Positions 267 through 25,346 of a DNA stretch of 46,332 bases are shown piece after piece. A program made the position numbers and the translations under genes. Under the pieces are notes generated by a model, which saw only the letters and a list, made by a program, of their open reading frames with translations, was not told where the DNA came from and did not search any database. How positions within the stretch are numbered: the first letter of the stretch is position 1; each line of letters opens with the position of its first letter. The DNA is taken from the IMG/VR virus record IMGVR_UViG_3300025886_003129, positions 1 to 46,332 of that record; one strand, written 5' to 3'. This stretch comes from a virus.

Positions 267-269
267 TAC

Positions 270-3595: not shown

Positions 3596-3599
3596 TAAC

Positions 3600-3610: not shown

Positions 3611-3638
3611 TGAAATAAGCATTTTTAAAATTTAACGG

Positions 3639-3649
3639 GTGTATATATA
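3639..3649 (+). promoter_or_regulatory. GTGTA-type promoter element
   Basis: GTGTATATATA ends 3 nt before the ATG at 3653. It would drive the overlapping cluster 3653-4937. Confidence 0.6.
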
Positions 3650-3652
3650 GGC

Positions 3653-4087
3653 ATGGGACCGATATTGAATACAATAATTGGGGCTGGAATAAAGCTTGCG
3701 TGCAACCTAATAAATTCTTGGTTGGAGCAGAAAAGACAAGATCAGTTGGCACTGGCAGCAAGGGACGATAAAATGCTACAAGCATTGATTGACGGTCAGG
3801 ATAAAAACTCGAGCGATCCTTTTGTGAAGGTAACAAGGAGAATTTTGTTTATGAGTATCACTTTTACAATGTGTTTTTTGATGATATATTACGCAATGAA
3901 TCCTCACATAGTATATAATGTTATTGTTCCGAAGGGTGATGGGGCGAAGTGGGGCTTTTTTGGTTGGGTGCTTGGGGGAAAAGATTGGGAGATGGTTCAA
4001 ATGACAGGAGGGTTAATGCTCGCCTCGTTTATGGATCTATGCTTTATGGTTGTCGGTTTTTACGCTATACCAAGTAAAAGAAGATGA
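3653..4087 (+). CDS. holin-like membrane protein, 144 aa
   Basis: An amphipathic N-terminal region and a charged linker precede two clear membrane segments (about residues 62-82 and 118-138), with a basic C-terminus ending PSKRR. The layout resembles the phage/gene-transfer-agent family of three-helix holins. The gene overlaps the next one by 4 nt (ATGA), and the next one encodes a lipoprotein with a C-terminal membrane segment, a lysis-cassette arrangement. Holin function is inferred from topology and neighbours. Confidence 0.55.
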   Translation: MGPILNTIIGAGIKLACNLINSWLEQKRQDQLALAARDDKMLQALIDGQDKNSSDPFVKVTRRILFMSITFTMCFLMIYYAMNPHIVYNVIVPKGDGAKWGFFGWVLGGKDWEMVQMTGGLMLASFMDLCFMVVGFYAIPSKRR

Positions 4088-4350
4088 GGTGGCTGTTTTT
4101 TCTCGTGTTTTTGCTGTGCTCTTGTAGCGTTAATAAGGTTTATAAGCCAAACCCTACGCCTAAACCCGTCATTTCTTCTGAATTTAACAATATAGACAAG
4201 AATAACGATTCGATGATTTCTGTAGTCGAATACCTGGATCTAAAATCTGCACCTTACGATTATGAAGGGCCAGCTATGTGGTTTTCTGTTATTTTGTTTT
4301 TTGTATTTCTGTTTTCTTCAGTTTTAGCGTATATTATTAATAAGAAATGA
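4084..4350 (+). CDS. lipoprotein with EF-hand-like loop and C-terminal membrane helix (unimolecular spanin-like), 88 aa
   Basis: The N-terminal signal ends in a lipobox-like LLCSC (Cys at about 13 or 15). The middle contains DKNNDSMISVVE, which has the spacing of a calcium EF-hand loop (D1, N3, D5, S9, E12). Residues about 62-84 form a C-terminal membrane helix. An outer-membrane lipid anchor plus an inner-membrane C-terminal helix is the architecture of u-spanins such as phage T1 gp11, though this protein is shorter. The gene is ATGA-coupled to the holin-like gene upstream and overlaps the next gene by 4 nt. Confidence 0.55.
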   Translation: MRWLFFLVFLLCSCSVNKVYKPNPTPKPVISSEFNNIDKNNDSMISVVEYLDLKSAPYDYEGPAMWFSVILFFVFLFSSVLAYIINKK

Positions 4351-4937
4351 ATACTGGACTAGATGTAATTAGCGTGCTTACTGGACTCGTCTCTGCTGCA
4401 ACTGCGGTATTGGGAGTCTGGATAAAGTTTAAACTTGACGAAAAAAAACATAAACAATTAAATTATGACCCCGCCTCTCACAGTAATATAATTACCGCCC
4501 TGCAATATGTTGCTGACGAGACTTCTGCTGATCGGGCTTATATACTAGAGTTCCATAATGGAGAGCAATATTTCTCTGGCAGGGGTCAGCAAAAACTTAG
4601 CTGCACATATGAGATCGTGGGAGATGGAATAAGCATTGAATGCCAAAACCTGCAGAACTTAAGAATTTCCAATTTACATGGATTAGTAGAGCAAATAGCT
4701 CAAGAAAAAACATTCGAGTGCGCTGATGTCGAAAGCTACAAGGGCGATTTTTCTTTTAGATCTTTCCTTATAAGCAAAGGGGTTAAAAGCATGTTTGCTC
4801 GACCAATCAAAACACTGAATGGTAAGATTATTGGCGTGATTTGTGTTGAATATGTAAAAGAGAATAGAAAATGGAGCGAAGACTCCGAAGATTTCATAAG
4901 GAAGCAATCAAGGGTTATTAGCGGCTATTTGATATAA
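4347..4937 (+). CDS. membrane-anchored GAF-domain protein, 196 aa
   Basis: Residues about 4-28 form one membrane helix, followed by a GAF-like domain (about 45-195). The GAF segment includes DRAYILEFHNGEQYFSG, then a DGIS/ECQNL stretch, and FARPIKTLNGKIIGVICVEY near the end, the usual last strands of a GAF fold. No output domain (kinase, cyclase, HTH) is attached. It is translationally coupled to the lipoprotein gene by a 4-nt ATGA overlap. The ligand and role are unknown. Confidence 0.65.
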   Translation: MNTGLDVISVLTGLVSAATAVLGVWIKFKLDEKKHKQLNYDPASHSNIITALQYVADETSADRAYILEFHNGEQYFSGRGQQKLSCTYEIVGDGISIECQNLQNLRISNLHGLVEQIAQEKTFECADVESYKGDFSFRSFLISKGVKSMFARPIKTLNGKIIGVICVEYVKENRKWSEDSEDFIRKQSRVISGYLI

Positions 4938-4964
4938 TTTTTTTTAAAGCTATAATATATTATT

Positions 4965-5345
4965 ATGGCTTTTTCTTATTGTCCCCATTGTGGTTTTAAA
5001 AATATGTACTCCCTCAAGGCTCCGAATTTTTGCGGTGGCTGCGGTGAAGGTTTAAATATATTGTCTGCAGCAAAACAAACGTCGCCTACAACAACCAGCG
5101 CTAAGCAGGGCGTAAAAAAGTTGTTGCCTAAACGAAGCAGGCCCGCTCCCTCTCAGGATGATGATCCTGATGGACTGGATATATATGAGGTTCCGAATAT
5201 ATCGAAACTGTCTTATTCAATAGAAAGAGATAGTAATAAATTTAACTTAAAGGACATTATTCCTGTGGAGCAATTTCAAGACTTCAAGGAAGAAAAACCC
5301 AAAGCCAAGAACAAAAAAACTCGTGGCCGACCAAGAAAAAACTAA
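4965..5345 (+). CDS. zinc-ribbon protein with AT-hook-like tail, 126 aa
   Basis: The N-terminus carries two CxxC knuckles (YCPHCGFKN and FCGGCGEGL), forming a zinc ribbon. The C-terminus is very basic and ends in TRGRPRK, the core of an AT-hook that binds minor grooves of AT-rich DNA. TATAAT at 4951-4956 lies 8 nt before the ATG. The 3' end overlaps the sigma-factor gene by 23 nt, so the two are probably co-translated, and a role as a transcription accessory factor is plausible but unproven. Confidence 0.6.
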   Translation: MAFSYCPHCGFKNMYSLKAPNFCGGCGEGLNILSAAKQTSPTTTSAKQGVKKLLPKRSRPAPSQDDDPDGLDIYEVPNISKLSYSIERDSNKFNLKDIIPVEQFQDFKEEKPKAKNKKTRGRPRKN

Positions 5346-6066
5346 CTTTACTTACGAGGACAAATCTTTGGAAATTGATTTGGAAATAAAAAAGAGAAGA
5401 GGCAAGTGGTTTCTTGATTCATTGGCCTGGTTTGATTTTGAGGATGTTGAGCAAATCATTAGGGCGCATATTCATAAAAAATGGCACCAATGGGACCAAA
5501 GAAGGTCTCTAAAGCCCTGGATGAATAAAATAATAACTAACCAAATGAAGAATATTTTGCGCAATAATTACAGTAATTTTGTTCGGCCCTGTTTGAATTG
5601 CCCGTTTAACCAGTCTTGCGCAACCAAAGATGGAGGCGAGTCTTCGTTGTGCGGGTTCACCAAAAGCGGTTCGCAAGACTCTTCCTGCCCATTATATGCC
5701 AAATGGGAGAGAACAAAGAAGTCTGCCTACGGAATCAAAATGGCACTAACCCTCGAAAACCATTCTAATGAAGTTCAAGCTATGGAGGATAATAATTATA
5801 GCATTATCGATGCTCAGAAAAAACTCAACTATTTCATGAAGAAAGAGCTGTCTGAGAAGCAGTATTTAGTTTACGAATTATTATTTATAGATAATATGGA
5901 TGAAGAAGAGGTAGCTGGAAAAATGGGCTACAAGACTTCCGAGAAGGGGCGTAAGGCTGGCTACAAACAAATTAAAAATTTAAAGAAGATATTCAAGCAA
6001 AAAGCTCAAGAAATTTTAGAAAAAGAAGATGTAATTCCCGATACAAAAGTTATAGCATGGATTTAA
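5323..6066 (+). CDS. phage-encoded sigma factor with Cys-cluster insertion, 247 aa
   Basis: Residues about 30-85 look like sigma region 2 (FDFEDVEQIIRAHI, then SLKPWMNKIITNQMKNILRN). Residues about 170-232 look like region 4 with a helix-turn-helix (LSEKQYLVYELLF, EEEVAGKMGY, GYKQIKNLKKIF). Between them are five Cys (90, 93, 99, 110, 122) that could hold zinc or a cluster, unusual for sigma factors. The start is GTG at 5323, inside the upstream zinc-ribbon gene. It lies just upstream of terminase, as expected for a regulator of late genes, and is the best candidate for recognising the GTGTA-type elements (inference). Confidence 0.7.
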   Translation: MADQEKTNFTYEDKSLEIDLEIKKRRGKWFLDSLAWFDFEDVEQIIRAHIHKKWHQWDQRRSLKPWMNKIITNQMKNILRNNYSNFVRPCLNCPFNQSCATKDGGESSLCGFTKSGSQDSSCPLYAKWERTKKSAYGIKMALTLENHSNEVQAMEDNNYSIIDAQKKLNYFMKKELSEKQYLVYELLFIDNMDEEEVAGKMGYKTSEKGRKAGYKQIKNLKKIFKQKAQEILEKEDVIPDTKVIAWI

Positions 6067-7109
6067 CAGAAGAACAAGAAAGAATTGTCTCAGAGAACGG
6101 TTCAACAATAAGCGACTTAACTGAGTTAACTAAATTAGCTTTTCCTGGAGAAGAAAATATAGACGGAAGAAGTAAGCAGGGGAGAGCCGTTAGGGCATTT
6201 ATGGTCCAGCAGGGAATTAATTACGACACAAAACATATATACCCGAAAGACAATATACAATTATCAGATTCTCAGCGAGAGTTTATTTCTAACTCTTCTC
6301 AGGACGGTATGAACGCATTACAAATCGCTACTGTATTATTTCCAGAAATACGGATTACCCGAAACTCAAAAGAGTACTCTTCTGTTTTGGAGTATATTGA
6401 AAGCCAGGATTCGCTAGATTTACACCCTTCCGAAAACGCTGTAAATAGAAAATATTCTGCCCCAAAAGCCGTAAGCAAAATAATCAAAAAAATCAACGAC
6501 TACTGTCAGAAAAATATTGAAGAGGCAAAGTTAAATATAGGGCAAAAAAAAGCTATCGAATCATTAGGGGCTTTTTTATCTTCTCCTCGATTTACTCAAG
6601 TTATAAATAATTATGACAGCATGGAGGATCGAGATTTATTCGAGGCAGAATTCGTAAGAGCTACCTGGGATAAACCTGATTTGAGTAATGATGAAATTAA
6701 TTTATATATTAATGTTTGCATGGATTATATTCATTTAAAAAACATCCAAGGAGCTATGAGCAAGTTGAATAGAATGTTCAATGACGCAGAAGACCAGCAA
6801 GATCTAACCGTCAGGCTGGCAGAGCTTTTGAAGACAAAGAGCGAAGAGTATAACCAGTGCGAAAAAAGGATGGAGTCTTTAATTCAAAAATTACAAGGGG
6901 ATAGGTCAAAAAGAGTGTCATCCCAGCAAAAGCAAAATTCTAGCATACTAGCTTTGGTTCAACTATTCCAAGAAGAGGAAGAACGTAAGGTGATGATAAA
7001 AATAGCAAACATGCAAAGAAAAGCCGCCAAGGAAGAGGCTGACAATCTTGAATCTATGCCCGACTGGAAGGCTAGGGTTCTTGGGGTATCTAAAGACGAT
7101 GTCGTATGA
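6057..7109 (+). CDS. hypothetical protein with duplicated HTH-like N-terminus, 350 aa
   Basis: Two similar segments at residues 3-53 and 69-115 (LTEEQERIVS...GSTISDLTELTKLAFPG and LSDSQREFIS...GMNALQIATVLFP) look like a duplicated DNA-binding helix-turn-helix unit. The rest is helical and rich in Glu/Lys, with a coiled-coil-prone stretch at about 235-340. It overlaps the sigma gene by 10 nt and the nuclease gene by 4 nt and lies two genes before the terminase large subunit. A small-terminase-like packaging role is possible but I cannot establish homology. Confidence 0.6.
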   Translation: MDLTEEQERIVSENGSTISDLTELTKLAFPGEENIDGRSKQGRAVRAFMVQQGINYDTKHIYPKDNIQLSDSQREFISNSSQDGMNALQIATVLFPEIRITRNSKEYSSVLEYIESQDSLDLHPSENAVNRKYSAPKAVSKIIKKINDYCQKNIEEAKLNIGQKKAIESLGAFLSSPRFTQVINNYDSMEDRDLFEAEFVRATWDKPDLSNDEINLYINVCMDYIHLKNIQGAMSKLNRMFNDAEDQQDLTVRLAELLKTKSEEYNQCEKRMESLIQKLQGDRSKRVSSQQKQNSSILALVQLFQEEEERKVMIKIANMQRKAAKEEADNLESMPDWKARVLGVSKDDVV

Positions 7110-8041
7110 GCGCACCAAAAGGCGAATTTATTTGTAAGGTTTGCTCGCAACCCTTCTCCTCGGAGAAGAGTATGCATGCTCATTTAAAATCTCATAAAAT
7201 AATACTTGCAGAATATTATACAAAATATTATCCTCGTTATAATTTATTTACTAAAGAACCCTTGCCATTTAAGAATAAGGATGATTATTTTAACAGAGAC
7301 TTTTCTACATATGAACAATTGATAAGTTGGTGCGAGAAAACAGAACCATCAGAGGTAAAAGAATATATAATTAATTTATTAAAAAAAAGAGTCGCCGCTA
7401 AAGGTTTAAAGTTTGCCCCTTCACATGTTGAATTAATGATTAATCACATGCCCACTATAGATGTTTTTCAAAAACACTATGGGTCTTATACTGCTGCTTG
7501 CGACGCTATAGGAATAAAGCCTATGTTTGGCGAAAGATTGCCGGAATCATTCAAGCAGAAAATAGACCCGAAAATGAAAATATTTGTAGACACTAGAGAG
7601 CAGCAGCCTCTAACTTTCCCCAACTCGGAACCTATGAAGCTAGAATTTGGAGATTACGCTGTGGGCGGGGCGGATTATGATTATACCTATGTGGACCGAA
7701 AGGGAGAGCAGGATTTTAAATCCACACTCAGCAAAAACAACTTAGATCGCTTTGAGTATGAACTTCAGAGAACAAAAGATTTTGATAGTTATTTATTCGT
7801 AGCTGTAGAAAGCGACTTAGCGCAAATAGAATCCAACAATAGGCGCGGGGCACACAAATCTAATTTAAAATACATTTATCATAACATGAGAGTGCTAAAT
7901 CATCAATTCTCGGGAAACTGTCAGTTTATATTTACCGGCAGTAGAGAAAAATCAGAAGAGTTTATACCTAAATTATTGAAGCTTGGAAAGAAACTGTGGA
8001 ACGTTGACCTTCAATATTATATAGACAAAGGGTTAATATAA
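7106..8041 (+). CDS. ERCC4-type nuclease with N-terminal C2H2 zinc finger, 311 aa
   Basis: Residues 10-30 form a C2H2 finger (CKVC ... HAHLKSH). Residues about 150-270 carry the ERCC4/XPF nuclease core: IFVDTREQQP, then LEFGDYAVGG and VDRKGEQDFKSTLS, the D...GDY...RK order of this PD-(D/E)XK-like family. A central region (about 90-145) links the two. The gene overlaps its neighbours by 4 and 1 nt, directly ahead of terminase, so it probably cuts branched DNA during packaging or recombination. Confidence 0.75.
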   Translation: MSAPKGEFICKVCSQPFSSEKSMHAHLKSHKIILAEYYTKYYPRYNLFTKEPLPFKNKDDYFNRDFSTYEQLISWCEKTEPSEVKEYIINLLKKRVAAKGLKFAPSHVELMINHMPTIDVFQKHYGSYTAACDAIGIKPMFGERLPESFKQKIDPKMKIFVDTREQQPLTFPNSEPMKLEFGDYAVGGADYDYTYVDRKGEQDFKSTLSKNNLDRFEYELQRTKDFDSYLFVAVESDLAQIESNNRRGAHKSNLKYIYHNMRVLNHQFSGNCQFIFTGSREKSEEFIPKLLKLGKKLWNVDLQYYIDKGLI

Positions 8042-9912
8042 TGAGCTGGGAGGTAGGCAACCAAGAATCAAGAAGTCCCGACAGAGACTTTAACGAAAAG
8101 CTTTTAGAGATGAAGGGGTATCTTGAAGAAAGAGAAGCTAAAATACTACTCTATAAATTCTTAAGAGAAAATATAACCTTTACTACGGATTTAATTTCAG
8201 GAGTGAAGCTGTTTCCTTTTCAACATATGGCCATAAAAGCCATGTTTGAAACCGATTATTTCATGGGAGTGTGGAGTCGGGGAATGAGTAAGTCTTTTAC
8301 TACTGCTATATACGCATATCTAGAAGCAATAATGAACCAGGGCGTAGAAATCGGCATACTTTCAAAGTCTTTTCGTCAGGCCAAAATGATATTTAAAAAA
8401 ATAGAAGATATCGCTTCAAAGCCTGAGGCAATGTATCTTTCTCAATGTATAACTCATAAATCAAAAAGTAATGACGAGTGGCTTCTTGAGATTGGCAGCT
8501 CAAGAATTCGAGCCCTGCCCTTGGGGGACGGAGAAAAGCTTCGGGGCTTTCGTTTTCACAGGATAATTATTGACGAATTTGCATTAATGCCCGAGCGAAT
8601 TTATAATGAAGTTATAATACCGTTTTTGAGTGTTGTAGAAAACCCAACTCAAAGAGAAGATATTTATAATGTAGAAACTGAATTAATCAGACAAGGAAAG
8701 CTTCAGGAGAGCGATCGGCATATTTGGCCAAATAATAAACTTATAGCTCTTTCTTCTGCTAGTTATAAATTTGAATATATGTATAAAGCCTATGAGCAGT
8801 TTGAAAATTTAATTCAGATTGGGGGAAACAAGCAGTCGGACGCTCACAGAACCATCATGCAGTTCAGCTATGACTGTGCTCCCCGGCAGCTATACGATCA
8901 AAATTTAATTAGTCAAGCAAAGTCAACCATGAGTCAGAGTCAGTTCGATAGGGAGTTTGGAGCGATATTTACTGATGATAGTTCTGGATATTTTAAGACC
9001 TCTAAAATGGCAGCATGCACATTAAAGGACGGAGAAAACCCATGCACGGAAATAGTTGGCAGTCCTGGAGATAAATATATTCTCGCTTTTGATCCTAGCT
9101 GGGCGGAAAGTGAAAGCAGCGATGATTTTGCCATGATGGTTATAAAACTAAACGAAGAAAAAAAGATTGGAGTCGTAGTTCATAGCTACGCTTTGGCTGG
9201 TGCAAATTTAAGACAACATATAAATTATTTTTATTATTTATTAAATCACTTTAATATTGTATCTATTGTAGGAGATTATAATGGAGGAGTTCAGTTTATT
9301 AATGCTGCAAATGAAAGCAGCTTGTTTAAGAAGAATAAACTAAATATACAATGCTTAAATACAAACTTTGATGACATAGAAAATTATCAACAAAAATTAA
9401 TAGAAGGTAAGCGCGAATATAATTTAGAAAATAAAACTATTTGTTACTTAAGAAAGCCTACTAGCCAGTGGATCCGTCGAGCAAATGAACTTCTGCAGTC
9501 GAACTTTGATCACAGAAGAATACTGTTTGGTTCTCGAGCTATTGATGATTCGTACAACGAGCAAAGAAGAAAAAAAATACCGATAGATAAAATCGAATTT
9601 TTAAAAACCTCTCAATCACAAGAGAGGCAAACTAATTCCGCGAAAATGATAGACTTTGTTGAGCACCAATTTGACATGATGAATTTGGTGAAAACGCAAT
9701 GCTCTTTGGTTCAGATAACAACATCCTCCGCAGGCACTCAAAGTTTTGACTTGCCTTCGAGCTTGAGGCGCCAAACTGGGCCAGAGAAAGCGAGGAAAGA
9801 TAGTTATTCCGCATTGGTTCTTGGAAATTGGATGGTTAAACTTTATTATGATATGATGGATTCAAAAATAGAGACAGTCTCTGCGACCTTTACTCCCATG
9901 TTTATAAAGTGA
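8041..9912 (+). CDS. terminase large subunit (packaging ATPase/nuclease)
   Basis: The ATPase has a Walker A-like SRGMSKS (79-85), the form seen in T4-type large terminases, and Walker B IIIDEF (175-180). The C-terminal RNase-H-like nuclease shows its acidic residues in ILAFDPSWAE, SIVGDYNGGVQF and AKMIDFVEHQFD. At 623 residues the length is normal for the family. It drives ATP-dependent DNA translocation into the prohead and cuts concatemers. It starts one base before the stop of the ERCC4 nuclease gene and is followed by the protease/scaffold gene. Confidence 0.95.
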   Translation: MSWEVGNQESRSPDRDFNEKLLEMKGYLEEREAKILLYKFLRENITFTTDLISGVKLFPFQHMAIKAMFETDYFMGVWSRGMSKSFTTAIYAYLEAIMNQGVEIGILSKSFRQAKMIFKKIEDIASKPEAMYLSQCITHKSKSNDEWLLEIGSSRIRALPLGDGEKLRGFRFHRIIIDEFALMPERIYNEVIIPFLSVVENPTQREDIYNVETELIRQGKLQESDRHIWPNNKLIALSSASYKFEYMYKAYEQFENLIQIGGNKQSDAHRTIMQFSYDCAPRQLYDQNLISQAKSTMSQSQFDREFGAIFTDDSSGYFKTSKMAACTLKDGENPCTEIVGSPGDKYILAFDPSWAESESSDDFAMMVIKLNEEKKIGVVVHSYALAGANLRQHINYFYYLLNHFNIVSIVGDYNGGVQFINAANESSLFKKNKLNIQCLNTNFDDIENYQQKLIEGKREYNLENKTICYLRKPTSQWIRRANELLQSNFDHRRILFGSRAIDDSYNEQRRKKIPIDKIEFLKTSQSQERQTNSAKMIDFVEHQFDMMNLVKTQCSLVQITTSSAGTQSFDLPSSLRRQTGPEKARKDSYSALVLGNWMVKLYYDMMDSKIETVSATFTPMFIK

Positions 9913-14378: not shown

Positions 14379-14888
14379 ATGAAAGAAAATATGAACGAAA
14401 CCAGAGCAGACTCAAGCTATAAAAAAGTAAAATCAGAACTTTTTCATATTTGGAAAAAAGCAAGATTACTTTATGACATGATTACTGAAGAAAGAGAAAT
14501 TCACGATTCAGTAAAGAAAAACATCACTTCTGCATACGAAGCTATTGACGAATCTATAAGATATATTGAGTATGAAGATATCTTCCCAAGCAAGCAAGAG
14601 CAAGTTCAGGAAGATAATGAAAATAATTTCTTAACAAACCAAGACAAAAGATACCCTGTGCCAGTCAACTCAGAAAGCGGCGACCAGTTTGTCACGAGAT
14701 GCATTCTTGACGCCAATATGAAAAAAAGGTACCCAGTTCAGTCCGATAGATTTCAGGCATGCATGCGAGTTTTTAATTCATCTAGGCAACAGCCTGATTC
14801 AAGCCAAAATCCTGGGGAGAAATTCGAAGATCCGATGGGGCCAAAACCTCCTGAAGTTAACGATCCAGCTAAGCCTCTTCTTCCTTGA
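14379..14888 (+). CDS. hypothetical protein, 169 aa
   Basis: An N-terminal helical region is followed by a conserved-looking block (DQFVTRCILDANMKKRYPV ... RFQACMRVFN) with two Cys, a pattern I recall from small phage head-associated proteins, and a Pro/Asp-rich disordered tail. The ATG codes for M-K-E-N-M, and a second ATG four codons later is an alternative start. The 3' end overlaps the convergent clp-like gene by 20 nt. Confidence 0.55.
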   Translation: MKENMNETRADSSYKKVKSELFHIWKKARLLYDMITEEREIHDSVKKNITSAYEAIDESIRYIEYEDIFPSKQEQVQEDNENNFLTNQDKRYPVPVNSESGDQFVTRCILDANMKKRYPVQSDRFQACMRVFNSSRQQPDSSQNPGEKFEDPMGPKPPEVNDPAKPLLP

Positions 14889-17334
14889 TTTTATAAACAA
14901 CCTCGCCCTTGATAAGGGAGAACTTTATTGAGTGGTTCTCGGTGAGATCTTTGTTCAGGAGGAGGTTTGAGAGTTGGTTCTCTATGTTTTTTTGAATCAA
15001 TCTTTGTATGGGCCTTGCGCCCATTTTCTCTTTTTCTGCTTGCTCGGATATGTATTTATTTAAAGAAGGAGTTGTAGATATTTTTATATTTTTATTTTTA
15101 AGCTTTTCTTGTATCTTATTCACTTCTAGTTTTGTTATCTTTATTAAGTCTTCTATACTAAAATTATCAAACATAATTATCTCATTTAGTCGATTTAAGA
15201 ACTCCGGCTTGAAGAATACTTTTAGCTCTTCCTTGAGCTTGTCTTTTGCGTGTGATGGAGAGTGTCCAAAGCCTATTGATGGTTTTGTGATTTTTTCGCT
15301 ACCCACATTGCCTGTTAGGATTATTATACAATTATTAAAATTAACCCTGCGACCCGAGTTGTCTGTTACGAACCCCTCTTCAAGAATTTGCAATAATATG
15401 TTTAGAACGTCTGGATGAGCTTTCTCAATTTCATCGAACAGTACAACGCTATAGGGGTTCCTTCTGACCTTTTCTGTCAACTCTCCGCCTTCCTCATACC
15501 CTACGTAGCCGGGAGAAGCGCCAATTAACCTGCTCGCGGAAATTTTCTCTGAGAATTCGCTCATATCTAATTGAATAAGCTTATCCTCTCCTCCGTATAC
15601 GAATTTCGCAATACATTTTGCAGTATGAGTTTTTCCTGTTCCGCTTGCCCCAACCAGCAAGAAGCTGCCTACTGGCTTTTTAGAATCTTGAAGTCCGGAT
15701 TTTGACCTTAGAATTGATTCCGAAATTTCTTTTATAGACTCTTTTTGGCCAATGATTTTTTTATTTAAATCTCTAGCCAAAGAAAGAAGCTTTGTGGATT
15801 CTTTTGTTGACATTTGGCTTACAGGCACACCCGTTCTGGCTGAAATCACTTCAAATATATCACTTTTAGATACTTGTATTTTAGCTTTTATGGTTTTTTT
15901 GGCCCATTTCTCTATCACTCTATCATACTCTTCTAGTAAAAATAACTGCTCATCTTCAACCGTGTTTCTTGATGCTCCAATCATTTCCATATTAGCCTCT
16001 TTCATGCTAAGATCTTCTAGTTGTTTCTCTATCTCTTTTGCCGCGTCAGGCCTTTGAATGTTCTTTATTTTAACTTTCGATCCAGCCTGATCCATGACAT
16101 CTATAGCTTTGTCTGGAAATTGTTTATCAATCATGTACCTGGAGGTCAGTTCAATAATTAAGTCAAGAGTTTCTTCGGGATAATTTATGCTGTGAAATTG
16201 TTCATACTTGTTTTTTATTCCTAAAATAATTTGTTTAGTTTCTTCTGGGCTTGGCTCTCTAACCTTTACAGATTGAAACCTTCTGTCGAGCGCTCCATCC
16301 TTGAGTATAGTCTTCTTGTACTCATCTTGAGTTGTGGCGCCGATACACTTTAGCTCTCCCCTTGCTAATAAGGGTTTAAGCATATTTGCAGCGTCCATTG
16401 AGCCTTCTGCGGCTCCAGCCCCAACAAGAGTATGTATTTCGTCGATAAACAGAATTATGTTTTTGTTTTTTTTAGCTTCATCTATTATGTTTTTTAATCT
16501 CTCTTCGAATTGACCCCTATATTTAGTGCCAGCTATTAAGGATCCTAGATCTAAGGAATATATAATTTTTGCTAGCAGAAAATCAGGAGCTTCAGCTTTA
16601 ACTATTCTTTGCGCTAGGCCTTCAACTATAGCGGTCTTCCCGACGCCAGGCTCGCCAAGCAAGACGGGGTTGTTCTTTGTTCTTCGACATAAAATTTCAC
16701 ATACGTTAGCAATTTCCTCTTCTTTACCTATGATGTTGTCAAATTTTCCTTTGGCGGCTAGGGCGTTAAGGTTTAAGGCGTGTTTTTCTAGGTTTTGCAA
16801 ACTAGTATCTTTTACCTTTGGTTTTGGAGGGTAATAGTGGCTTTCTTTTTTATGCGCCGGGTTTTCTTTGGAGAGGTGCAGGTATTCCCTTACTTCTGAT
16901 ATAATATCCTCCTCTGACGCGTTGAAAGATTTAAAAAAGCTTGGTATGGACGAGCCTTCAAATTTTAACAACGCTAACAACATATGCTCTAGACCTACAT
17001 ATTCGTGATCTAGTTTTTCGCTTATTGATGCTGAAACCTTTAATATTAAATGGAATTCTTCATCAAAAGATGGACTCGTTTCTGATTCAGGGTAAAACTC
17101 TAGGCCATTTAAGTCTTGGGAGAGCGTATGTTCTATTTCGTCTTTTAGCGCAAGCTGATCAATGTTTAATAAATACAATATCTCACTCAGTATCCCTGCG
17201 TTTAATCTTACCATTCCGTAAAACAAATGGTCTATACATACAAATTCACTGTTATATTTTTTTGCAACCTTTTTGGCTTCATTTATCGCTTGCTGCGCAC
17301 GTGGCGTAAAGTTGGGTTTTGGCGTCATCTTCAT
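14869..17334 (-). CDS. clpC-like: ClpC/ClpA-type AAA+ unfoldase, up to 821 aa
   Basis: Two Clp-N repeats (about 1-155) precede two AAA+ modules with Walker A GEPGVGKT (227-234) and GASGTGKT (562-569) and Walker B LFIDEI and VLFDEI. It has a ClpC-like short linker and no ClpB-type long middle domain. The loop IGFG (687-690) lies where ClpA/ClpC/ClpX carry the IGF/L ClpP-binding loop, so it probably docks onto host ClpP. No clpP is seen here. Two starts are possible: 17334, or the ATG two codons downstream at 17328, which would place a GTGTAAAAC element 6 nt before the start. Confidence 0.9.
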   Translation of the reverse strand: MKMTPKPNFTPRAQQAINEAKKVAKKYNSEFVCIDHLFYGMVRLNAGILSEILYLLNIDQLALKDEIEHTLSQDLNGLEFYPESETSPSFDEEFHLILKVSASISEKLDHEYVGLEHMLLALLKFEGSSIPSFFKSFNASEEDIISEVREYLHLSKENPAHKKESHYYPPKPKVKDTSLQNLEKHALNLNALAAKGKFDNIIGKEEEIANVCEILCRRTKNNPVLLGEPGVGKTAIVEGLAQRIVKAEAPDFLLAKIIYSLDLGSLIAGTKYRGQFEERLKNIIDEAKKNKNIILFIDEIHTLVGAGAAEGSMDAANMLKPLLARGELKCIGATTQDEYKKTILKDGALDRRFQSVKVREPSPEETKQIILGIKNKYEQFHSINYPEETLDLIIELTSRYMIDKQFPDKAIDVMDQAGSKVKIKNIQRPDAAKEIEKQLEDLSMKEANMEMIGASRNTVEDEQLFLLEEYDRVIEKWAKKTIKAKIQVSKSDIFEVISARTGVPVSQMSTKESTKLLSLARDLNKKIIGQKESIKEISESILRSKSGLQDSKKPVGSFLLVGASGTGKTHTAKCIAKFVYGGEDKLIQLDMSEFSEKISASRLIGASPGYVGYEEGGELTEKVRRNPYSVVLFDEIEKAHPDVLNILLQILEEGFVTDNSGRRVNFNNCIIILTGNVGSEKITKPSIGFGHSPSHAKDKLKEELKVFFKPEFLNRLNEIIMFDNFSIEDLIKITKLEVNKIQEKLKNKNIKISTTPSLNKYISEQAEKEKMGARPIQRLIQKNIENQLSNLLLNKDLTENHSIKFSLIKGEVVYKIKEEEA

Positions 17335-17348: not shown

Positions 17349-19907
17349 TTACTTAACTTCAGACATTTTCATATATATCTTTTCGTCCATAATTTTGATT
17401 GAGTCAAGAAATATTATATCTTCAGCCTTCCTTCCGTAAGCTATTACAATGTTCTTTTTTGTCGGCGCTTTTTGGTTTTTCTCGAAATACCTGTCGTAGA
17501 AATTACCTCTTCTTGAATTTAATAGCATTGCATCCCATTTTCCATTTTCGTCAGACATTGATAGCTTTATATATTTGTTTCCATTCCTTGAGGTAGCTTT
17601 TAAGCAATCAATAACAACACCTATAAATTTACCCCCTTCATCTTTATCCATAAGCTCAAGATCTCTTGAGTCTTTTAAATCTTTATAGAGATCGTTAAAG
17701 CAGCTTTTTAATTTTGAGCTATGACTGTACCCCAATAATTCATTTTCGAAATACCAATTCGCAAACCTTTCGTAAGATTTATTTTTATCATAAATAGATT
17801 TGTAAAGATCATATTTCTTTTTAAATGTCTTAAATCTAGACTCTTTCATTAAGGGTTTTCCGTCGTCCCCAACCATTTCCTGGTTTTTGGCGTCAGCTAT
17901 ACAGTTTAATAACTTATAGTCATATTTTTCTCCAATAAGTATAAAGTTCCTCTTTTCTCTATCTGTTAAAAGGTTAAATGCTTGAGCTTCCAGAGCCATT
18001 AAAGATCTATTTGAGCCCTTGCTTTGAAGCGCTCCGGCCTGACACAAGGCTGACAATATCCCTATATTTAGCCCTGCTTGTTTTGCCGCTAAGAAAATAT
18101 CGTATTTTGTTGGGGTATTGCTGGATCTAAAATCCCTGAGAGACTGTAGGGATTTTTCGCTAACGCCTTTTATGCTATTGAGCCCAAATCTTATATCTTT
18201 ACCTTCTGTCGAGAAGTCCATTTTGGATTTTGCTAAATCAGGGGAAAGAAGTTTGATTCCAAAATTAGACAGCTCTCTTGATATAGAGGCTATTTCTTCT
18301 TGTGGGGCCGGTTCATACTTGGTCATCTTTAGTAGCGACATAAAAAACTCTTGTGGGTAATTAAATTTAAGATAAGCGGTCCACGCGGCTAATGTTGCGT
18401 ATGCCAGCGAGTGAGATTTATTAAAAGAATAGTTTGCGCTATCTTCCGCTACTCTCCATAAAACTTCTCCAACTTCTGTTGGCAGTTCGTTTTCTATTAT
18501 TTTTTGCTGAATTTTCGCTTTCCACGCTGGCATTTGATCGATTTTCTTTTTGCCAACTATCCTTCTCAACTGCTCAGACTCATCCAAGGTAAACCCAACT
18601 TTAACGGCCATCTGCATTAATTGTTCCTGATAAAGAGGTATTCCCCCTGTATAATCCAAAACATCCCTAAAGAATTCGTGAATTACCTGAGGCTCCTCTG
18701 TTTCGGAATATTTAACATAATCACCCAGAAAGTCTAAAGCTCCCGGTCTTCCAATCGCAACCACGGCACTTAACTGCTCAAGGCTCTTTGGCTTGATTTT
18801 TTTACAGACCTTAAAATTTGTATCCGATTCGAGCTGAAACAACCCATGAGGGCTTTTTAAAGACTGCAGGGGTTTAAAAATTTTAGGATCATTGAGGTCC
18901 ATTTTTGATATGTCTTCGCCAATAGTTTTACATACATCATAAATAACGCTCAAGGTTCTTAGGCCCAAAATATCAAATTTAACCATTAGTTCTGAGACCC
19001 AGTTCATATCATAGCCGGTTACTAGGTTTCCGTCGTTTGTTTTTTGAACAGGGCAAATGTCAGTTATAGTGCTATGCGAAATAGCTATTCCACTAGGATG
19101 AACTCCTGTGTTTTTGTTTAAACCTTCAAGCTTCAAGGCGATTTCAAAAGTTTCGGAGTTTTCAGAAGCCCAATCTGCAAATTTTTCGCTTTCTTGTATC
19201 GCTGAAAGTAGCGGCAATACTACGCCAAACTTTTTAGGTATTGTTGTGCTAATAAGATTAACATCTTGTTCGCTAAGTTCTCCTACTATTTTGCCGCATT
19301 CCTTAACGCACAACTTACCGCTTAAAGTATTAAGGGTTAATATTTTAGCTGTTCGAGAGGGATGTTTTCTTTCGATATATTCTATGACTTCAACTCTTCT
19401 TTCATAAGCTATGTCGTTGTCAACGTCTGCAAGAAGGCTTCCGTCTAGAAATGTTATTCCTTCTTGAATCGTTTTCTTTGCTCGGCTTTTAGAGACAAAT
19501 CTTTCAAAAAACAAATTGTACTTAACGGGGTCTACGTCTGTAACGCCAATTAAATAAAGAACAAGTGAGCCTGCTGCAGACCCTCTGCCTGGGCCAGTAG
19601 GTATATCTTTTTCGTGACAAAAGTTAATTATATCCCAATTTAATAAAATATAATCAATAAAACCCAGTTCTTCTAATATTTTTAATTCTGATTTTGCGCG
19701 ATCAAAATAATCTTTTTTATTTTTGTATTTATCTATTCCCTTATCGTATACTCCTTTGTGACATAGCTTACGAAGGAAGTCGTAATTAGATATAGCGCTA
19801 TCCGCTTCCAGCATATCATAATATTTTTGTTCAATTTCAATCTCAGGCAGTCTTACGCCTGGAGGGCAGCACTCCTTGTAATCTGTAAATTGATCCGTAA
19901 AGCTCAT
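17349..19907 (-). CDS. dnaE-like: DNA polymerase III alpha, polymerase part (DnaE without PHP domain)
   Basis: Conserved DnaE elements are visible in order: PTGPGRGSAAGSLVLYLIGVTDVDP, FERFVSK, the catalytic pair in ADVDND, NTGVHPSGIAIS, KFDILGLRTL with the third Asp, GRPGALDF, YQEQLMQMA, KSHSLAYATLAAW, and a C-terminal OB-fold-like region. The N-terminal PHP domain is absent and is encoded separately at 21040-21807. The start is taken as the ATG at 19907, because it forms an ATGA overlap with the upstream exonuclease stop and follows GGAGAT; an ATG five codons upstream (19922) is possible. About 852 aa. Confidence 0.9.
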   Translation of the reverse strand: MSFTDQFTDYKECCPPGVRLPEIEIEQKYYDMLEADSAISNYDFLRKLCHKGVYDKGIDKYKNKKDYFDRAKSELKILEELGFIDYILLNWDIINFCHEKDIPTGPGRGSAAGSLVLYLIGVTDVDPVKYNLFFERFVSKSRAKKTIQEGITFLDGSLLADVDNDIAYERRVEVIEYIERKHPSRTAKILTLNTLSGKLCVKECGKIVGELSEQDVNLISTTIPKKFGVVLPLLSAIQESEKFADWASENSETFEIALKLEGLNKNTGVHPSGIAISHSTITDICPVQKTNDGNLVTGYDMNWVSELMVKFDILGLRTLSVIYDVCKTIGEDISKMDLNDPKIFKPLQSLKSPHGLFQLESDTNFKVCKKIKPKSLEQLSAVVAIGRPGALDFLGDYVKYSETEEPQVIHEFFRDVLDYTGGIPLYQEQLMQMAVKVGFTLDESEQLRRIVGKKKIDQMPAWKAKIQQKIIENELPTEVGEVLWRVAEDSANYSFNKSHSLAYATLAAWTAYLKFNYPQEFFMSLLKMTKYEPAPQEEIASISRELSNFGIKLLSPDLAKSKMDFSTEGKDIRFGLNSIKGVSEKSLQSLRDFRSSNTPTKYDIFLAAKQAGLNIGILSALCQAGALQSKGSNRSLMALEAQAFNLLTDREKRNFILIGEKYDYKLLNCIADAKNQEMVGDDGKPLMKESRFKTFKKKYDLYKSIYDKNKSYERFANWYFENELLGYSHSSKLKSCFNDLYKDLKDSRDLELMDKDEGGKFIGVVIDCLKATSRNGNKYIKLSMSDENGKWDAMLLNSRRGNFYDRYFEKNQKAPTKKNIVIAYGRKAEDIIFLDSIKIMDEKIYMKMSEVK

Positions 19908-20551
19908 ACTTCTATCTCCCATATCATTTTCTTAAAAACTTCATAATTAACTCTAATATCATATAATGCGTCATGTAATTTGGTTGCGTCGAAAGGGACA
20001 TCAAAGTCCTTGCAGCACTGTTTAAGGTTGCAGGAAAGCCCTCTTTCTATTAAATGGTTCAATCTGTACTGCCAGGATAGGAAGTCGTCTTCATTATTTA
20101 ATTTAATTTGTTTTTTCAAGGCTTTTGCTAAAGATAGAGTATCTACTAAGTTGTTCATGTATGAAAAGTCTGATTTTGCTTTCGGGTTGATTAGTTTTCT
20201 GTGAAGGTTGTGCATGTATACGTCAAAGCCTAATAAGTTATGCCCCACTTTAATGTAAGAATCATCATATAGGTATTTTTCAAAATTGTCAAGAGCTAAT
20301 TGTGGGTCCACGGCGTTCTTTTTATATTTTGCCTGGGTAAAGCCTGTAATTTTTGCAGCCTCCGGAGATACCCTAAGGTCGTCCCACTTGAGCCAGTAGT
20401 CTTTTTCCTCTATAACTTTATTGTTTTCTATCACAAGAAAGGCTAGCTGCCATGGCTTGTTGTGTCCAGAAATTAAGTTTAAATTACAGGTTTCGTAATC
20501 AAAAAGTAAATATTTTTGTTTGTTTTTAAATCTCAGTAGCTGTTCCTTCAT
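19904..20551 (-). CDS. DnaQ-like 3'-5' exonuclease (proofreading), 215 aa
   Basis: DEDDh exonuclease motifs are visible: LLFDYETCN (motif I), KVGHNLLGFDVYMHNL (motif II region) and LHDALYDIRVNYEVFKKM (motif III, His-x4-Asp). It is coupled to the polymerase gene by an ATGA overlap and overlaps the SET gene start-to-stop by 26 nt. It probably supplies proofreading for the adjacent polymerase. Confidence 0.85.
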   Translation of the reverse strand: MKEQLLRFKNKQKYLLFDYETCNLNLISGHNKPWQLAFLVIENNKVIEEKDYWLKWDDLRVSPEAAKITGFTQAKYKKNAVDPQLALDNFEKYLYDDSYIKVGHNLLGFDVYMHNLHRKLINPKAKSDFSYMNNLVDTLSLAKALKKQIKLNNEDDFLSWQYRLNHLIERGLSCNLKQCCKDFDVPFDATKLHDALYDIRVNYEVFKKMIWEIEV

Positions 20552-21050
20552 TATCTTTCCAGTATTGGTCTCCGTAGTTTATTAATAATTCTTCTCCTTT
20601 TTTTATTTCTTTATTTGCTGTATATTCAAATATCATATTTTCTATGTCAACTTCATAGTCTATGTTGTTGTTTTTTGCGTGGTTGTATATCATTCCATTT
20701 CCTAGTACCGTTGCTGAATTAAAAAGCTTATTAATATCTTCGTAGCCCAAGTCTTTTAGGAAGTTTTTTAAATGCTCTGTGATTTCTTCGTCTTCAAACA
20801 TTGAAAGAAGTTGAACTTTAAAGGAAATTTTTTCGTTTTCTTCTTTGGATAAATTTTTATCAAAAAATATATTAAACGCGAACCTCGCCAACTCTTTATC
20901 TTGCATTTCTTTCATGCATCCAGATACTATAAAATGACACTGCTCTACTAACTCTCCTTTGTTGATGTTTTCTGCGGCAAAAACGCCTCTGCCTTTGATT
21001 TTTGATTTGTCAACATATATCTTATTGGGTTGTATTAGTTTATACTGCAT
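20526..21050 (-). CDS. SET-domain protein (putative lysine methyltransferase), 174 aa
   Basis: The SET fold is recognisable: KGRGVFAAENINKGELVE at the N-terminus, GNGMIYNHAKNNNIDYEV with the NH motif, and KEIKKGEELLINYGDQYW at the end. The start is chosen at ATG 21050 because AAGGAG lies 7 nt upstream; a longer frame from 21089 lacks this. It overlaps the PHP gene by 11 nt. SET proteins methylate lysines, usually on histones or ribosomal proteins; the target here is unknown. It sits between the two halves of a split DNA polymerase. Confidence 0.85.
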   Translation of the reverse strand: MQYKLIQPNKIYVDKSKIKGRGVFAAENINKGELVEQCHFIVSGCMKEMQDKELARFAFNIFFDKNLSKEENEKISFKVQLLSMFEDEEITEHLKNFLKDLGYEDINKLFNSATVLGNGMIYNHAKNNNIDYEVDIENMIFEYTANKEIKKGEELLINYGDQYWKDNEGTATEI

Positions 21051-21807
21051 TTTTTTGCTCCTTCCAGCTTTCAAAGCAAAACTCATCACTTCCGAAATGA
21101 TCTAAGTTCGGCTTCGATAGGGTTTTATTTCCAAAGGTTCTTCCTGTAATGCATTTGTATGTTTGAAGCGCAGATACATCCTTCTTCTTTCTGTAGTAAA
21201 TGCTTTTAACCATTTCTGTTTTGCATTTACTTTCTTCTGCGAATTTAATAACTCTAGATCTTAATAGTAGGTCAAAGGGTAGGCTGTTATTTTCTATAAA
21301 ATATACCGGCTTTGTGAAAGAAAAGTTGGGTGTGCAATTTGCAAATTTTATATTATTATTAAATATAAACGAATCGTAGAAGGGGATTGCCAGTATTAAT
21401 TTTTTATTATCCCAGTGTTTTTTCAATATCTTTTCGTCCACCGAATTAAACGCCTCCGAGAAAGCTTCGCTATATATCGAGTTTAGCAACCCGCATCCTT
21501 CAGAGTTCTTTGCAAAAATAACTATTTTATGTCTGGATTTTACAGACTCTTCTTTTGGGTTTAATTTTGAATCCTCGCACATATCTATTCGCAGCCCGAA
21601 AACCAATTTTATATCCATTGATTCGGATACTTTTTTCGCTTGAAGAAATCCTGTTAGAGAGTCTTCTACTAATACAACCTCTTTTAGGTTGTTGTCTTGA
21701 GCTATAGAAAAAATACTATCTGTTTTGCTGTCATCTAGTGACGATGGATTGTTTAGAGTTAGTATGCTTTTCCCTATTGAAAAATGGCTTTTGAATAATG
21801 GTATCAT
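21040..21807 (-). CDS. PHP-domain part of split DNA polymerase III alpha, 255 aa
   Basis: The N-terminus (PLFKSHFSIGKSIL) and following alternating strands and helices (FSIAQDNNLKEVVLVEDSLTGF, IKLVFGLRI) follow the PHP layout of DnaE. The C-terminal part (ALQTYKCITGRTFGNKTL ... FGSDEFCFESWKEQ) matches the DnaE stretch that joins PHP to palm. The usual HxH metal pair is degraded (one His), so it may be catalytically dead. A strong sigma70-type promoter begins the transcript. The polymerase gene follows two genes later. Confidence 0.7.
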   Translation of the reverse strand: MIPLFKSHFSIGKSILTLNNPSSLDDSKTDSIFSIAQDNNLKEVVLVEDSLTGFLQAKKVSESMDIKLVFGLRIDMCEDSKLNPKEESVKSRHKIVIFAKNSEGCGLLNSIYSEAFSEAFNSVDEKILKKHWDNKKLILAIPFYDSFIFNNNIKFANCTPNFSFTKPVYFIENNSLPFDLLLRSRVIKFAEESKCKTEMVKSIYYRKKKDVSALQTYKCITGRTFGNKTLSKPNLDHFGSDEFCFESWKEQKNAV

Positions 21808-21814: not shown

Positions 21815-21843
21815 ATTTTACCAGAATTTCATTAAGTTGTCAA
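21815..21843 (-). promoter_or_regulatory. sigma70-type promoter of the polymerase operon
   Basis: On the - strand: TTGACA (21843-21838), 17-nt spacer, TAAAAT (21820-21815), then 7 nt to the ATG at 21807. The predicted transcription start is at or next to the A of the start codon. Confidence 0.85.
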
Positions 21844-21860
21844 CACTAAACTTATAAACA

Positions 21861-21883
21861 AAAAAACCGCTATTAGCGGTTTT
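21861..21883 (-). terminator. bidirectional-looking terminator after the DUF1501 cassette boundary
   Basis: AAAACCGC (21863-21870) and GCGGTTTT (21876-21883) form an 8-bp stem with loop TATTA. On the - strand it is followed by a T-run, so it ends messages from 21902-25346. Confidence 0.8.
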
Positions 21884-21901: not shown

Positions 21902-23200
21902 TTAATTAAGTATATCAAACAAGGGCTTTCCGTCGTGGGCCACTTTAAATGGCCTGCCGGAGGGAGATGTTTGTATTTTATTTAAGGGTAGCCCCATGGC
22001 ATATGCTATAGTTGCATTTAACGATGCCGGGTCAATAAATTTACCCTCGGCTGGGTTTCTGCCTAGCTCATCCATTTTTCCGTAGACTGTCCCCCCTTTA
22101 ATTCCCCCACCAGCAAGAAAAGCTGTAAATCCATAGGGCCAATGATCTCTTCCGTCGCGCTCATTTATCTTAGGCGTCCTGCCAAATTCTGAGGTTAAAA
22201 CAACCATGGTTTCTTTAAGCAGTCCACGCATTTCAAGATCAATTAAAAGAGCGCTTAGAGCTTTATCAATATCTGCGCAATTGTCCGCAACAGATTCAAA
22301 GTTGTTATCGTGGGTGTCCCACCCTCCTCGACTAACTTCTACATAACGAACTTGATTTTCTATTAAACGACGAGCAAGCAAGCATCCCTGCCCGAAGTTA
22401 GTTTTTCCATAAAGTTCGTGCATTGACTCTGGCTCAAGAGTTATATCAAAAGCTTTTAAGTCCTCGCTTCGCATGAGTTTGACCGCGTCTTTATAAAGAT
22501 CAGAGTAAGCTCGAACCTGCTTCTGGTCATATTGATTAAGGTAAGAGGAATTCATTTTTTGAGCCATAGATAAACGACCCCCAAATCGATTTTGATCAAT
22601 ATAGTCTGCAAGCTTACTGTTTGCTAGGCCACTGCTTGGGTTGCCTATTGGGAGGGGTCCAAATTTAGACTCAAGAAATCCAGCTCCTGCTGGATTAGAT
22701 CCGATTTGCACATTGGATGGGATAGTGCTATTGATTGCTCCCGAAAGTTTTGATACCCAGCTTCCGAATGTAGGGTGGGCAATGGTACCTCGCTTTAAAT
22801 AGCTTGTATGCATCAAGTAACTCGCTTGTTCGTGGGCTCCTTGACTTGTTGACATTGTTCGAATAATTGCAGCATTATGCATATGTTTTGCGGTTAACGG
22901 AAGATTCTCAGAAAGAATAACCCCATCAGCAGAAGTCGGAATAGATTTTGTTGGGCCTTGTATCTCTGGCACATCTGGGTTTGTTCCAAATGTATCGAGA
23001 TGAGACATCGCTCCACTCATATTTAAGTAAATAACATAACGGGCGGTAGCGGGCCTAGGGCCAGTAGTAAAAGCTTCAGCGCTGTTATGGATATAAGAAC
23101 CAGCCATTGGTAGGAGCCCAACTCCGAGACACGCCTTTGCCGCGCTTGCAATAAACTCTCTTCTTTTTAATTCGTCTAATTTTTCGATATTTGTTTTCAT
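21902..23200 (-). CDS. DUF1501 protein with Tat-type signal, about 432 aa
   Basis: KRREFIASAAKACLGVG near the N-terminus is a twin-arginine export signal. DUF1501 hallmarks are present and intact: NMSGAMSHLDTFG, RGGWDTHDNNF, LTSEFGRTPKINERDGRDHWP and LAGGGIKGGTVYG, which carry the metal-binding residues of this alkaline-phosphatase/sulfatase-like family. The family is abundant in Planctomycetes and Verrucomicrobia and usually sits beside DUF1549/DUF1553 genes, as here. The start ATG at 23200 is one base after the upstream stop; a TTG at 23212 is less likely. Substrate unknown. Confidence 0.9.
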   Translation of the reverse strand: MKTNIEKLDELKRREFIASAAKACLGVGLLPMAGSYIHNSAEAFTTGPRPATARYVIYLNMSGAMSHLDTFGTNPDVPEIQGPTKSIPTSADGVILSENLPLTAKHMHNAAIIRTMSTSQGAHEQASYLMHTSYLKRGTIAHPTFGSWVSKLSGAINSTIPSNVQIGSNPAGAGFLESKFGPLPIGNPSSGLANSKLADYIDQNRFGGRLSMAQKMNSSYLNQYDQKQVRAYSDLYKDAVKLMRSEDLKAFDITLEPESMHELYGKTNFGQGCLLARRLIENQVRYVEVSRGGWDTHDNNFESVADNCADIDKALSALLIDLEMRGLLKETMVVLTSEFGRTPKINERDGRDHWPYGFTAFLAGGGIKGGTVYGKMDELGRNPAEGKFIDPASLNATIAYAMGLPLNKIQTSPSGRPFKVAHDGKPLFDILN

Positions 23201-23201
23201 T

Positions 23202-25346
23202 TTATTTAACAAACATAAATTCGTGACTATTTATTAGAGCCCAAACTATGTCCTTATGGTAATCCTTGGTGTTTAGTTTTTTAATTGTTTCTTTAAAATC
23301 TTTTAGTTCTTTAGAATTAGGTTTTCTTTGTAAAATGGCAAGAAATGATAAATTAATCCTTTCCTCCATGCTTGAAGCTTCGAGGATTTCACTGAGGGTG
23401 GCGGACTTTTTATTATTAATAATATTCTTTTCGACATAGCCATTGATTAAAGCCAGTACTTGATTGACTGCCGCTTCCTTATGAGATACTTGGATTTGGT
23501 CACGAGGAGACCCTCCGAACTGTAAAATCATATGCCCTCTGGGCGCAGGATCCCCAACCTCAGAAGCTCTTAGGGAGTTTATATCGCGAGTTAAAAAGCC
23601 TTTTCGTTTAGGGCTCGTCTCGCTGTTTGACTCTTGTTTTTTCATTGGTGTCATAGAGATAGCTTCTTGCTGTTTAAGTTTGGGCGCGATTTCTTGAAAT
23701 ATTTCTTCAGCCGTCATCTCTTTGTATCTAAGGTATTCCTCAAAACCTTCTTCAGGAGCTCGAGAATTAATTCTATTGTCTAAATCGTAAAAATTTAGAG
23801 TCACTAATGAATCCCAAATTTGCTCAGCGCTCATTCTTTGCATTACGGGGCCTTGATAGAAGTAAGGTTTATTTCCTTGAGTTTTAGATATTACCCACTT
23901 TACCTCTGGAGGTAGCGAGTCATCTTTTGAGTCTCTAGGGGTTATATCCCCTATTGGAACCTCTCTTTGGAAAGCTTTTGTATTATAAATAATTCTTAAA
24001 AATTCTTTTGTGTCAAAGTCTAAGGCGACCATCAACTTTTCTAAATGAAGCATCATTTCTGGATGAACCGGTAGCGTGTCATCATATATATTATCCACAG
24101 GCTCTATTAAACCATATCCAAAAGCAGATTTCCACAGCCGATTCGCTATTACAGTTGAAAACCTAGGGTTAGTAGCAGACGCTAACCAACTAGCATAAGA
24201 AGCGCGGGAACCTTTTTGTTTGAGGTTTTCATCTAATTCTACGGCTAAGCCAAAAATAGTTTTAGCTTTTAATTTTTGCCCAGGTTTTGCGTTGTCGTAT
24301 TGGTAATCCTTGGGTAGGGAAATCGACCCTTTACCTAAGTCGTCTAGACCTGGGGACAGTAAGTTTTGCACTGGAAGGAAAGCTCTTCGAATTTTATTTC
24401 TGTCTTCTGGGTTTTCTTTCTGTAAGGCTCTTATGAGTTTTGAAAGTTTATTAAGCTCTTCATCTTTTCTTTTCATTCTTTCTGCTCCATTGGTAAATGC
24501 AGCCATTTCGTAGAACTGTTTTTGTGTCCAGCGGTCGAAGGGGTGATCGTGGCATTGAGCGCACTCCAAGCTTGTGCCGAGAAACACACGAACCGTATTC
24601 GACATGTTGTCTAACCCCATGCCTTGGTCGCGGTAAAAATAGCCAACAGCCCCGTTATTTATTTCCCACATAGGGCCTGTAGAAGAAAGCATTTCCTTAA
24701 CCCAAATATCGTAAGGCTTATTCGAGGAAATGGAATCTTTTATGTATTTTATAAACGGATACCCATCTGAACCTTGATTTCCTACTCGAGTTTTCGCTCG
24801 GAGTATATCGGCCCAATAGATATACCAATTTTTATTGTACCCTTCCGAGTTTAAAAGTTTATCAATTAGTTGAGTTCTGGATTTTTTATCCCTGTTTCCA
24901 AGAAAATCCTGAGCTTCTTTTAAGGTGGGTATCCTTCCAATAATCTTCAGGTAGGCTCTTCGAAGAAAAGTCTCGTTAGAGATTTCTTTATTAGGCCTTT
25001 CTCCATAAGACCTGAGTTTCGATTCGATAATTTTATCTATAAATTCTGAATTAATTTTTAAATCTTTATCTGAAAGAGGTTTTTTGAATGTGGGTAGAGA
25101 TTCATGATTGGGTGGAAAATTGTTTTTTACGAAAGCTTGATCATCTTCTGTGAATATATCTAGTTTTATTCTGAACAATTGTTTGTCATTTGATCTTTCT
25201 AATAAGACATCTCCATTGTCGAAGTATTTTACTATTGATCCATTTATTTTTTGCTTATTCTTTGAGTAAAAATCTCTATTAATTGAAGAGAAGGATGATA
25301 TTGATGACAGTATTGATAAAAGTGTAATAATTATTAACTTATTCAT
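23202..25346 (-). CDS. DUF1549/DUF1553 (PSD1-type) exported protein with CxxCH site, 714 aa
   Basis: A signal peptide (1-20) is followed by a short SHD1-like strand-rich region (GSIVKYFDNGDVLLE...DIFTEDDQAFV). DUF1549 comes next, with ECAQCHDHPFDRWTQKQFY (CxxCH at 262-266, a possible c-type heme site). The C-terminal DUF1553 has YASWLASATNPRFS, NRLWKSAFGYGLIEPVDNI and MILQFGGSPRD. These are diagnostic of Planctomycetes/Verrucomicrobia surface or periplasmic proteins of poorly known function. It is paired with the DUF1501 gene one base downstream and has its own late-type promoter. Confidence 0.9.
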   Translation of the reverse strand: MNKLIIITLLSILSSISSFSSINRDFYSKNKQKINGSIVKYFDNGDVLLERSNDKQLFRIKLDIFTEDDQAFVKNNFPPNHESLPTFKKPLSDKDLKINSEFIDKIIESKLRSYGERPNKEISNETFLRRAYLKIIGRIPTLKEAQDFLGNRDKKSRTQLIDKLLNSEGYNKNWYIYWADILRAKTRVGNQGSDGYPFIKYIKDSISSNKPYDIWVKEMLSSTGPMWEINNGAVGYFYRDQGMGLDNMSNTVRVFLGTSLECAQCHDHPFDRWTQKQFYEMAAFTNGAERMKRKDEELNKLSKLIRALQKENPEDRNKIRRAFLPVQNLLSPGLDDLGKGSISLPKDYQYDNAKPGQKLKAKTIFGLAVELDENLKQKGSRASYASWLASATNPRFSTVIANRLWKSAFGYGLIEPVDNIYDDTLPVHPEMMLHLEKLMVALDFDTKEFLRIIYNTKAFQREVPIGDITPRDSKDDSLPPEVKWVISKTQGNKPYFYQGPVMQRMSAEQIWDSLVTLNFYDLDNRINSRAPEEGFEEYLRYKEMTAEEIFQEIAPKLKQQEAISMTPMKKQESNSETSPKRKGFLTRDINSLRASEVGDPAPRGHMILQFGGSPRDQIQVSHKEAAVNQVLALINGYVEKNIINNKKSATLSEILEASSMEERINLSFLAILQRKPNSKELKDFKETIKKLNTKDYHKDIVWALINSHEFMFVK

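Follow-up and report, generated by a model that had tools for sequence, protein, structure and literature searches.

What keeps the PHP domain in every bacterial C-family replicase, including those in which it no longer has a working metal site? In E. coli, PHP has lost its metal site, yet it is of major structural importance to Pol III, which becomes less stable and less active when PHP is mutated (PMC3666897), and it is bound by the epsilon subunit (PMC3919608). A phage locus in which PHP is a separate protein offers a natural way into this question: PHP can be added or omitted, which makes its role in stability, synthesis and proofreading directly testable. One account (PMC3666897) describes C-family polymerases as each consisting of one polypeptide, in agreement with the statement in the preliminary description of this DNA that DnaE is normally one chain. 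In the window (the whole stretch of DNA analysed, 46,332 nucleotides, IMG/VR record IMGVR_UViG_3300025886_003129), that description had also proposed a DnaE cut into a PHP gene and a polymerase gene, in an overlapping operon with a DnaQ-like exonuclease. The ORFs, the profile matches and the conservation of the locus across phages all bear this out, and chance is excluded because the locus is conserved in far more than 100 other contigs.

Organisation of the locus

All four ORFs were found on the minus strand where they had been placed, overlapping head to tail in the transcription order PHP, SET, EXO, POL. The PHP gene (21040–21807) encodes a 255 aa protein that corresponds to the N-terminal PHP domain of DnaE. 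It is followed by the genes for a 174 aa SET-domain protein (20526–21050), a 215 aa DEDDh 3'-5' exonuclease of the DnaQ/PolC-exo type (EXO, 19904–20551) and an 852 aa polymerase (POL, 17349–19907). A ClpA/ClpC-like AAA+ protein is encoded directly downstream of POL (14869–17334, minus strand), and its gene adjoins POL in most relatives. The longest POL ORF begins at 19922, but we prefer the ATG at 19907 because it overlaps the EXO stop codon as ATGA. Among 90 distinct contigs, the EXO stop lies in ATGA or GTGA in 42 and in TAATG in 15. SET is unlikely to begin at the listed GTG (21089); a GGAG lies just upstream of the ATG at 21050, which is most likely the start.

In front of PHP lies a -35 box (TTGACA, 21838–21843, minus strand) and, after a 17-nt spacer, a -10 box (TAAAAT, 21815–21820, minus strand) that ends 7 nt before the PHP ATG. 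A promoter ending 5–9 nt before this ATG was found in 121 of 154 distinct contigs, against 0.0017 expected per contig from shuffling. This predicts a PHP mRNA with almost no leader, beginning at or beside the start codon. Many further genes on these contigs show the same spacing between promoter and start, which suggests that leaderless mRNAs may be widespread across the phage lineage. In the window, sigma-70-like promoters whose -10 box ends 6–9 nt before the start codon were also seen upstream of 39599, 32428 and 26392 (minus strand). Further upstream of PHP, a terminator-like hairpin read from the sequence (AACCGC/GCGGTT and a T run, 21859–21881, minus strand) ends a unit that encodes a DUF1501 protein (21902–23212); a DUF1549/DUF1553 protein is encoded at 23202–25346. 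Such proteins are typical of Planctomycetota and Verrucomicrobiota, and the two genes are a possible hint to the host.

Identity of the PHP, polymerase and exonuclease proteins

The PHP protein matched the Pfam PHP family at 2e-4, just short of the family cut-off, and TIGR00594 at 2e-8; profile–profile comparison against DnaE PHP domains gave 99.4% (E 4e-20). Its AlphaFold model (pLDDT 90) had significant PDB matches exclusively to DnaE and PolC. The PHP identity proposed earlier for this 255 aa protein is thus confirmed structurally, the model matching DnaE PHP domains with a best E of 1.4e-11 and a TM of up to 0.75.

An active PHP nuclease has a metal site of nine residues, HHDHEH[C/H]DH (PMC12926913). 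By profile alignment, the corresponding positions in this phage are L4, K6, K13, D49, R73, K94, F143, S202 and Y204, where the seventh (approximately F143) is uncertain owing to a gap in the alignment, and none of the nine residues is kept. Across 156 distinct PHPs, seven of the nine ligand columns contain no His, Asp, Glu or Cys at all; the Y204 column contains about 1% of these residues, the D49 column has Asp where His is expected, and the K13 column is K or R. With its ligands gone, the protein is predicted to be catalytically dead. On the face of the lost metal site sit the conserved residues, of which S10, G12, S14, L16, P142–S146 (PFYDS), N151 and Y205 show no variation across the 156 distinct PHPs. 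In one contig (L115, 9989–11344), the PHP gene encodes about 200 extra C-terminal residues and overlaps EXO.

POL matched PF07733 at 2e-61, with matches to the fingers and HhH as well, and its model (pLDDT 86) found DnaE polymerases as structural matches. It comprises palm, thumb, fingers and HhH, followed C-terminally by an OB fold. The tau-binding C-terminal domain was not recognised in POL, whose best DnaE profile match stops at position 1036 of 1146. Asp166, Asp168 and Asp317 align with the catalytic Asp positions of Taq DnaE and are invariant in 38 sequences; the polymerase active site therefore appears intact. PHP and POL cover consecutive stretches of the same DnaE profiles, which places the break in the linker between PHP and palm. 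In NF004226 (1146 positions), PHP matches 23–250 and POL 278–1036, so that only 27 positions are absent between them, and in PHROG 405 (DnaE) the matches span 61–294 and 334–1078.

EXO matched RNase_T at 2.5e-13, and its nearest profile is the PolC exonuclease. Its DEDDh residues (D18, E20, D110, H193 and D198) are invariant in 37 of 37 sequences, pointing to an intact exonuclease active site. The protein ends with the exonuclease domain. In E. coli, epsilon binds PHP through a C-terminal tail; EXO has no such tail, and its docking must therefore differ. No conserved clamp-like motif was found in EXO other than in the first exonuclease strand. Thirteen contigs, all from one subclade, have a small ORF of unknown family between EXO and POL (for example L102, 11713–12063), which is a candidate for an extra subunit.

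Distribution of the operon

To determine how widespread this arrangement is, we scanned viral contigs with three POL queries, two PHP queries and one SET query, and genomes with PHP. All three genes were present in 281 loci, 163 of them distinct as judged by an EXO 120-mer. In every one, the order is PHP-EXO-POL on one strand, and in none are PHP and polymerase fused into one polypeptide. The gene order seen in the window is thus shared by other phages. PHP and EXO are at most 60 nt apart in 87 of the 163 distinct loci, and EXO and POL in 98. The second PHP scan alone returned at least 575 stretches that encode a PHP relative.

Loci with a gene missing were cut by the contig end or very short, with three exceptions. 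Two of these (L302 and L303) are unrelated single-chain DnaE polymerases with 28–29% identity. The third (L254) is a 54 kb fragment that has POL without PHP and without EXO, and it is the only broken operon found; its POL adjoins structural-type genes (1–6660). As loci fetched with PHP cannot show its absence, the argument on the absence of PHP rests on the POL-based scans.

Each of 20 records of 97–211 kb, which are possibly incomplete, had a single POL and a single PHP. Polymerases of families A and B were not found in these records, leaving POL as the sole A-, B- or C-family polymerase detected. Nor was a phage beta clamp (PF02768) found in them; the clamp is therefore host-derived or too divergent. 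The seven contigs matched in the genome scan come from metagenome bins that belong to unrelated phyla and are most likely mis-binned phage. Besides the viral POL, the bins contain full-length bacterial DnaE, which is consistent with viral contigs in the bins.

Among named phages, the best matches listed for POL did not exceed about 34% identity, PHP had two weak matches and the terminase showed about 26% identity. The operon is thus a replication unit of a large and widespread group of uncultured tailed phages that has no close relative in the named-phage collection searched.

Variable genes at the PHP/EXO junction

The preliminary description placed both a SET gene and an exonuclease gene between PHP and POL. 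Both are present in the window, but only the exonuclease belongs to the constant unit, as SET occurs at the junction in 19 of 116 distinct contigs. The SET protein matched PF00856 at 5.6e-14, keeps the motifs GRGVFA, YNH and GEELLINYG and has the viral SET methyltransferase of PBCV-1 as its best PDB match (2.4e-12). It is probably a lysine methyltransferase. Across the same 116 contigs, the gap between PHP and EXO exceeds 300 nt in 50, and besides SET the junction was found to hold an IMPDH/GMP-reductase-like gene (15), a cupin (7), an uncharacterised ORF (5) or a JmjC/cupin-8 gene (2); in other distinct contigs it has no insert. As SET is only one of several alternative genes at this position, we read it as dispensable cargo at a permissive site, with PHP-EXO-POL as the constant unit. 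A role of SET as a replicase subunit was rejected because of its patchy occurrence.

Comparison with known C-family polymerases

The phage proteins keep the logical order of bacterial DnaE (PHP, palm-thumb-fingers, HhH, OB) and, as with the DnaQ epsilon subunit, the DEDDh exonuclease acts in trans. Unlike in bacteria, the phage PHP is a separate product, the gene for the exonuclease is found between those for PHP and the polymerase, and a tau-binding domain is not recognisable. PolC of Firmicutes likewise has its exonuclease encoded between PHP and polymerase, and the best profile and PDB matches of EXO are PolC exonucleases. However, PolC is a single polypeptide whose exonuclease is inserted within PHP and whose OB is N-terminal, whereas the phage POL is of the DnaE type with a C-terminal OB.

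The nearest published case is that of the group 2.2 jumbo phages, which also encode a C-family polymerase in two genes. The break in their minimal Pol III alpha falls within the catalytic region, and the remaining Pol III domains are absent; the two parts lie at distant loci, and a family B polymerase is also present (PMC7824862). In contrast, PHP is present in the phages described here, the cut lies outside the catalytic core and no family B polymerase was found. In Pbunavirus, Wifcevirus and Tabernariusvirus, an exonuclease gene overlaps or abuts dnaE, but PHP and polymerase form one chain. There is therefore nothing unusual in an exonuclease gene immediately upstream of a phage DnaE; the unusual feature is the detached PHP. 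The two DnaE genes of Rossellomorea phage phiT1 (gp20/gp18) are cut inside the polymerase, so that PHP stays with the palm, and the two genes of cyanobacterial split-intein DnaE give products joined by inteins, which are lacking at the PHP/POL junction here. Split DnaE polymerases are thus already known; in the open-access literature on DnaE and PHP in phages, we found no description of PHP as a free subunit alongside EXO and POL.

Proposed role of the free PHP protein and alternative explanations

We consider it probable that the operon encodes a three-subunit C-family replicase core that resulted from one ancient fission, with a catalytically dead PHP docking in trans on both POL and EXO. 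The fission would have cut the linker on the protein surface that connects PHP to the palm, and the operon would now make three replicase proteins: PHP, EXO and POL. PHP would be a metal-free structural subunit that folds alone and sits on POL in the way that the covalently attached domain sits in DnaE; it would stabilise POL and help to position EXO, which would supply all proofreading. We infer from the above that PHP, EXO and POL bind one another and that PHP is needed for activity.

PHP might instead have become an independent protein that has acquired a new ligand or a new catalytic function, leaving POL to work without it. Its strictest conservation does lie in the ancestral active-site loops (S10, G12, S14, PFYDS and Y205), basic residues (K6, K13/R, R73 and K94) occupy old ligand positions, and the L254 fragment has POL without PHP. 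We regard this explanation as unlikely, as the linkage and order with EXO and POL are otherwise constant, PHP resembles the PHP of DnaE and PolC and not any free PHP enzyme in the PDB, and the conserved face could equally be a docking or exonuclease-positioning surface. Those same basic positions, together with the invariant S10, G12, S14, PFYDS and Y205, are candidates for a new pocket, and it is possible, though rather improbable, that the dead metal site now binds DNA, a nucleotide or the exonuclease and that PHP is an exchangeable subunit that would switch the replicase between synthesis and proofreading.

That EXO and POL are partly produced as a fusion by -1 frameshifting would fit the position of POL in the -1 frame, overlapping the end of EXO; this is very improbable given that a standard slippery heptamer occurs in just 10 of 97 adjacent EXO-POL pairs and that the ATGA overlap accounts for the geometry. 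It is still harder to credit that a split intein rejoins PHP and POL post-translationally, as happens with cyanobacterial DnaE. The lineage does contain split inteins, as in L286, but no intein domain is found at the PHP end or the POL start, and PHP ends 5 residues past its last DnaE-homologous residue. A recent disruption of a normal dnaE by SET or another mobile gene, or a misassembly, has next to no probability: the PHP/EXO junction does accept cargo genes, but the comparison refutes it, since the 163 distinct contigs have PHP proteins as little as about 40% identical, and many show 4-nt overlaps and no insert. In L286, POL is cut again at the fingers motif SANYSFN/SHS (5995–7773 and 7801–8997), with split-intein halves on both parts, and L114 (12747–15686) carries a contiguous mini-intein at the same POL site.

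Evolution of the split polymerase

To place the split polymerases among other DnaE sequences, a tree was made of 18 split POLs and 19 other DnaE from phages and metagenome bins. The split POLs formed one clade (100/100) on a long branch, and one fission is the simplest account of this. In the named-phage collection, 13 of 14 DnaE loci examined are a single chain with a long N-terminal part before the palm; the exception is Rossellomorea phage phiT1, which is cut elsewhere. PHP and POL gave no signal of specific coevolution, as their distance-matrix correlation (0.918) is no higher than the ClpC-POL background (0.921), which indicates shared inheritance. Two sequences from a Lokiarchaeota bin (L235 and L239) are N-terminal DnaE parts of 625 and 626 aa that end near the cut site of phiT1 DnaE.
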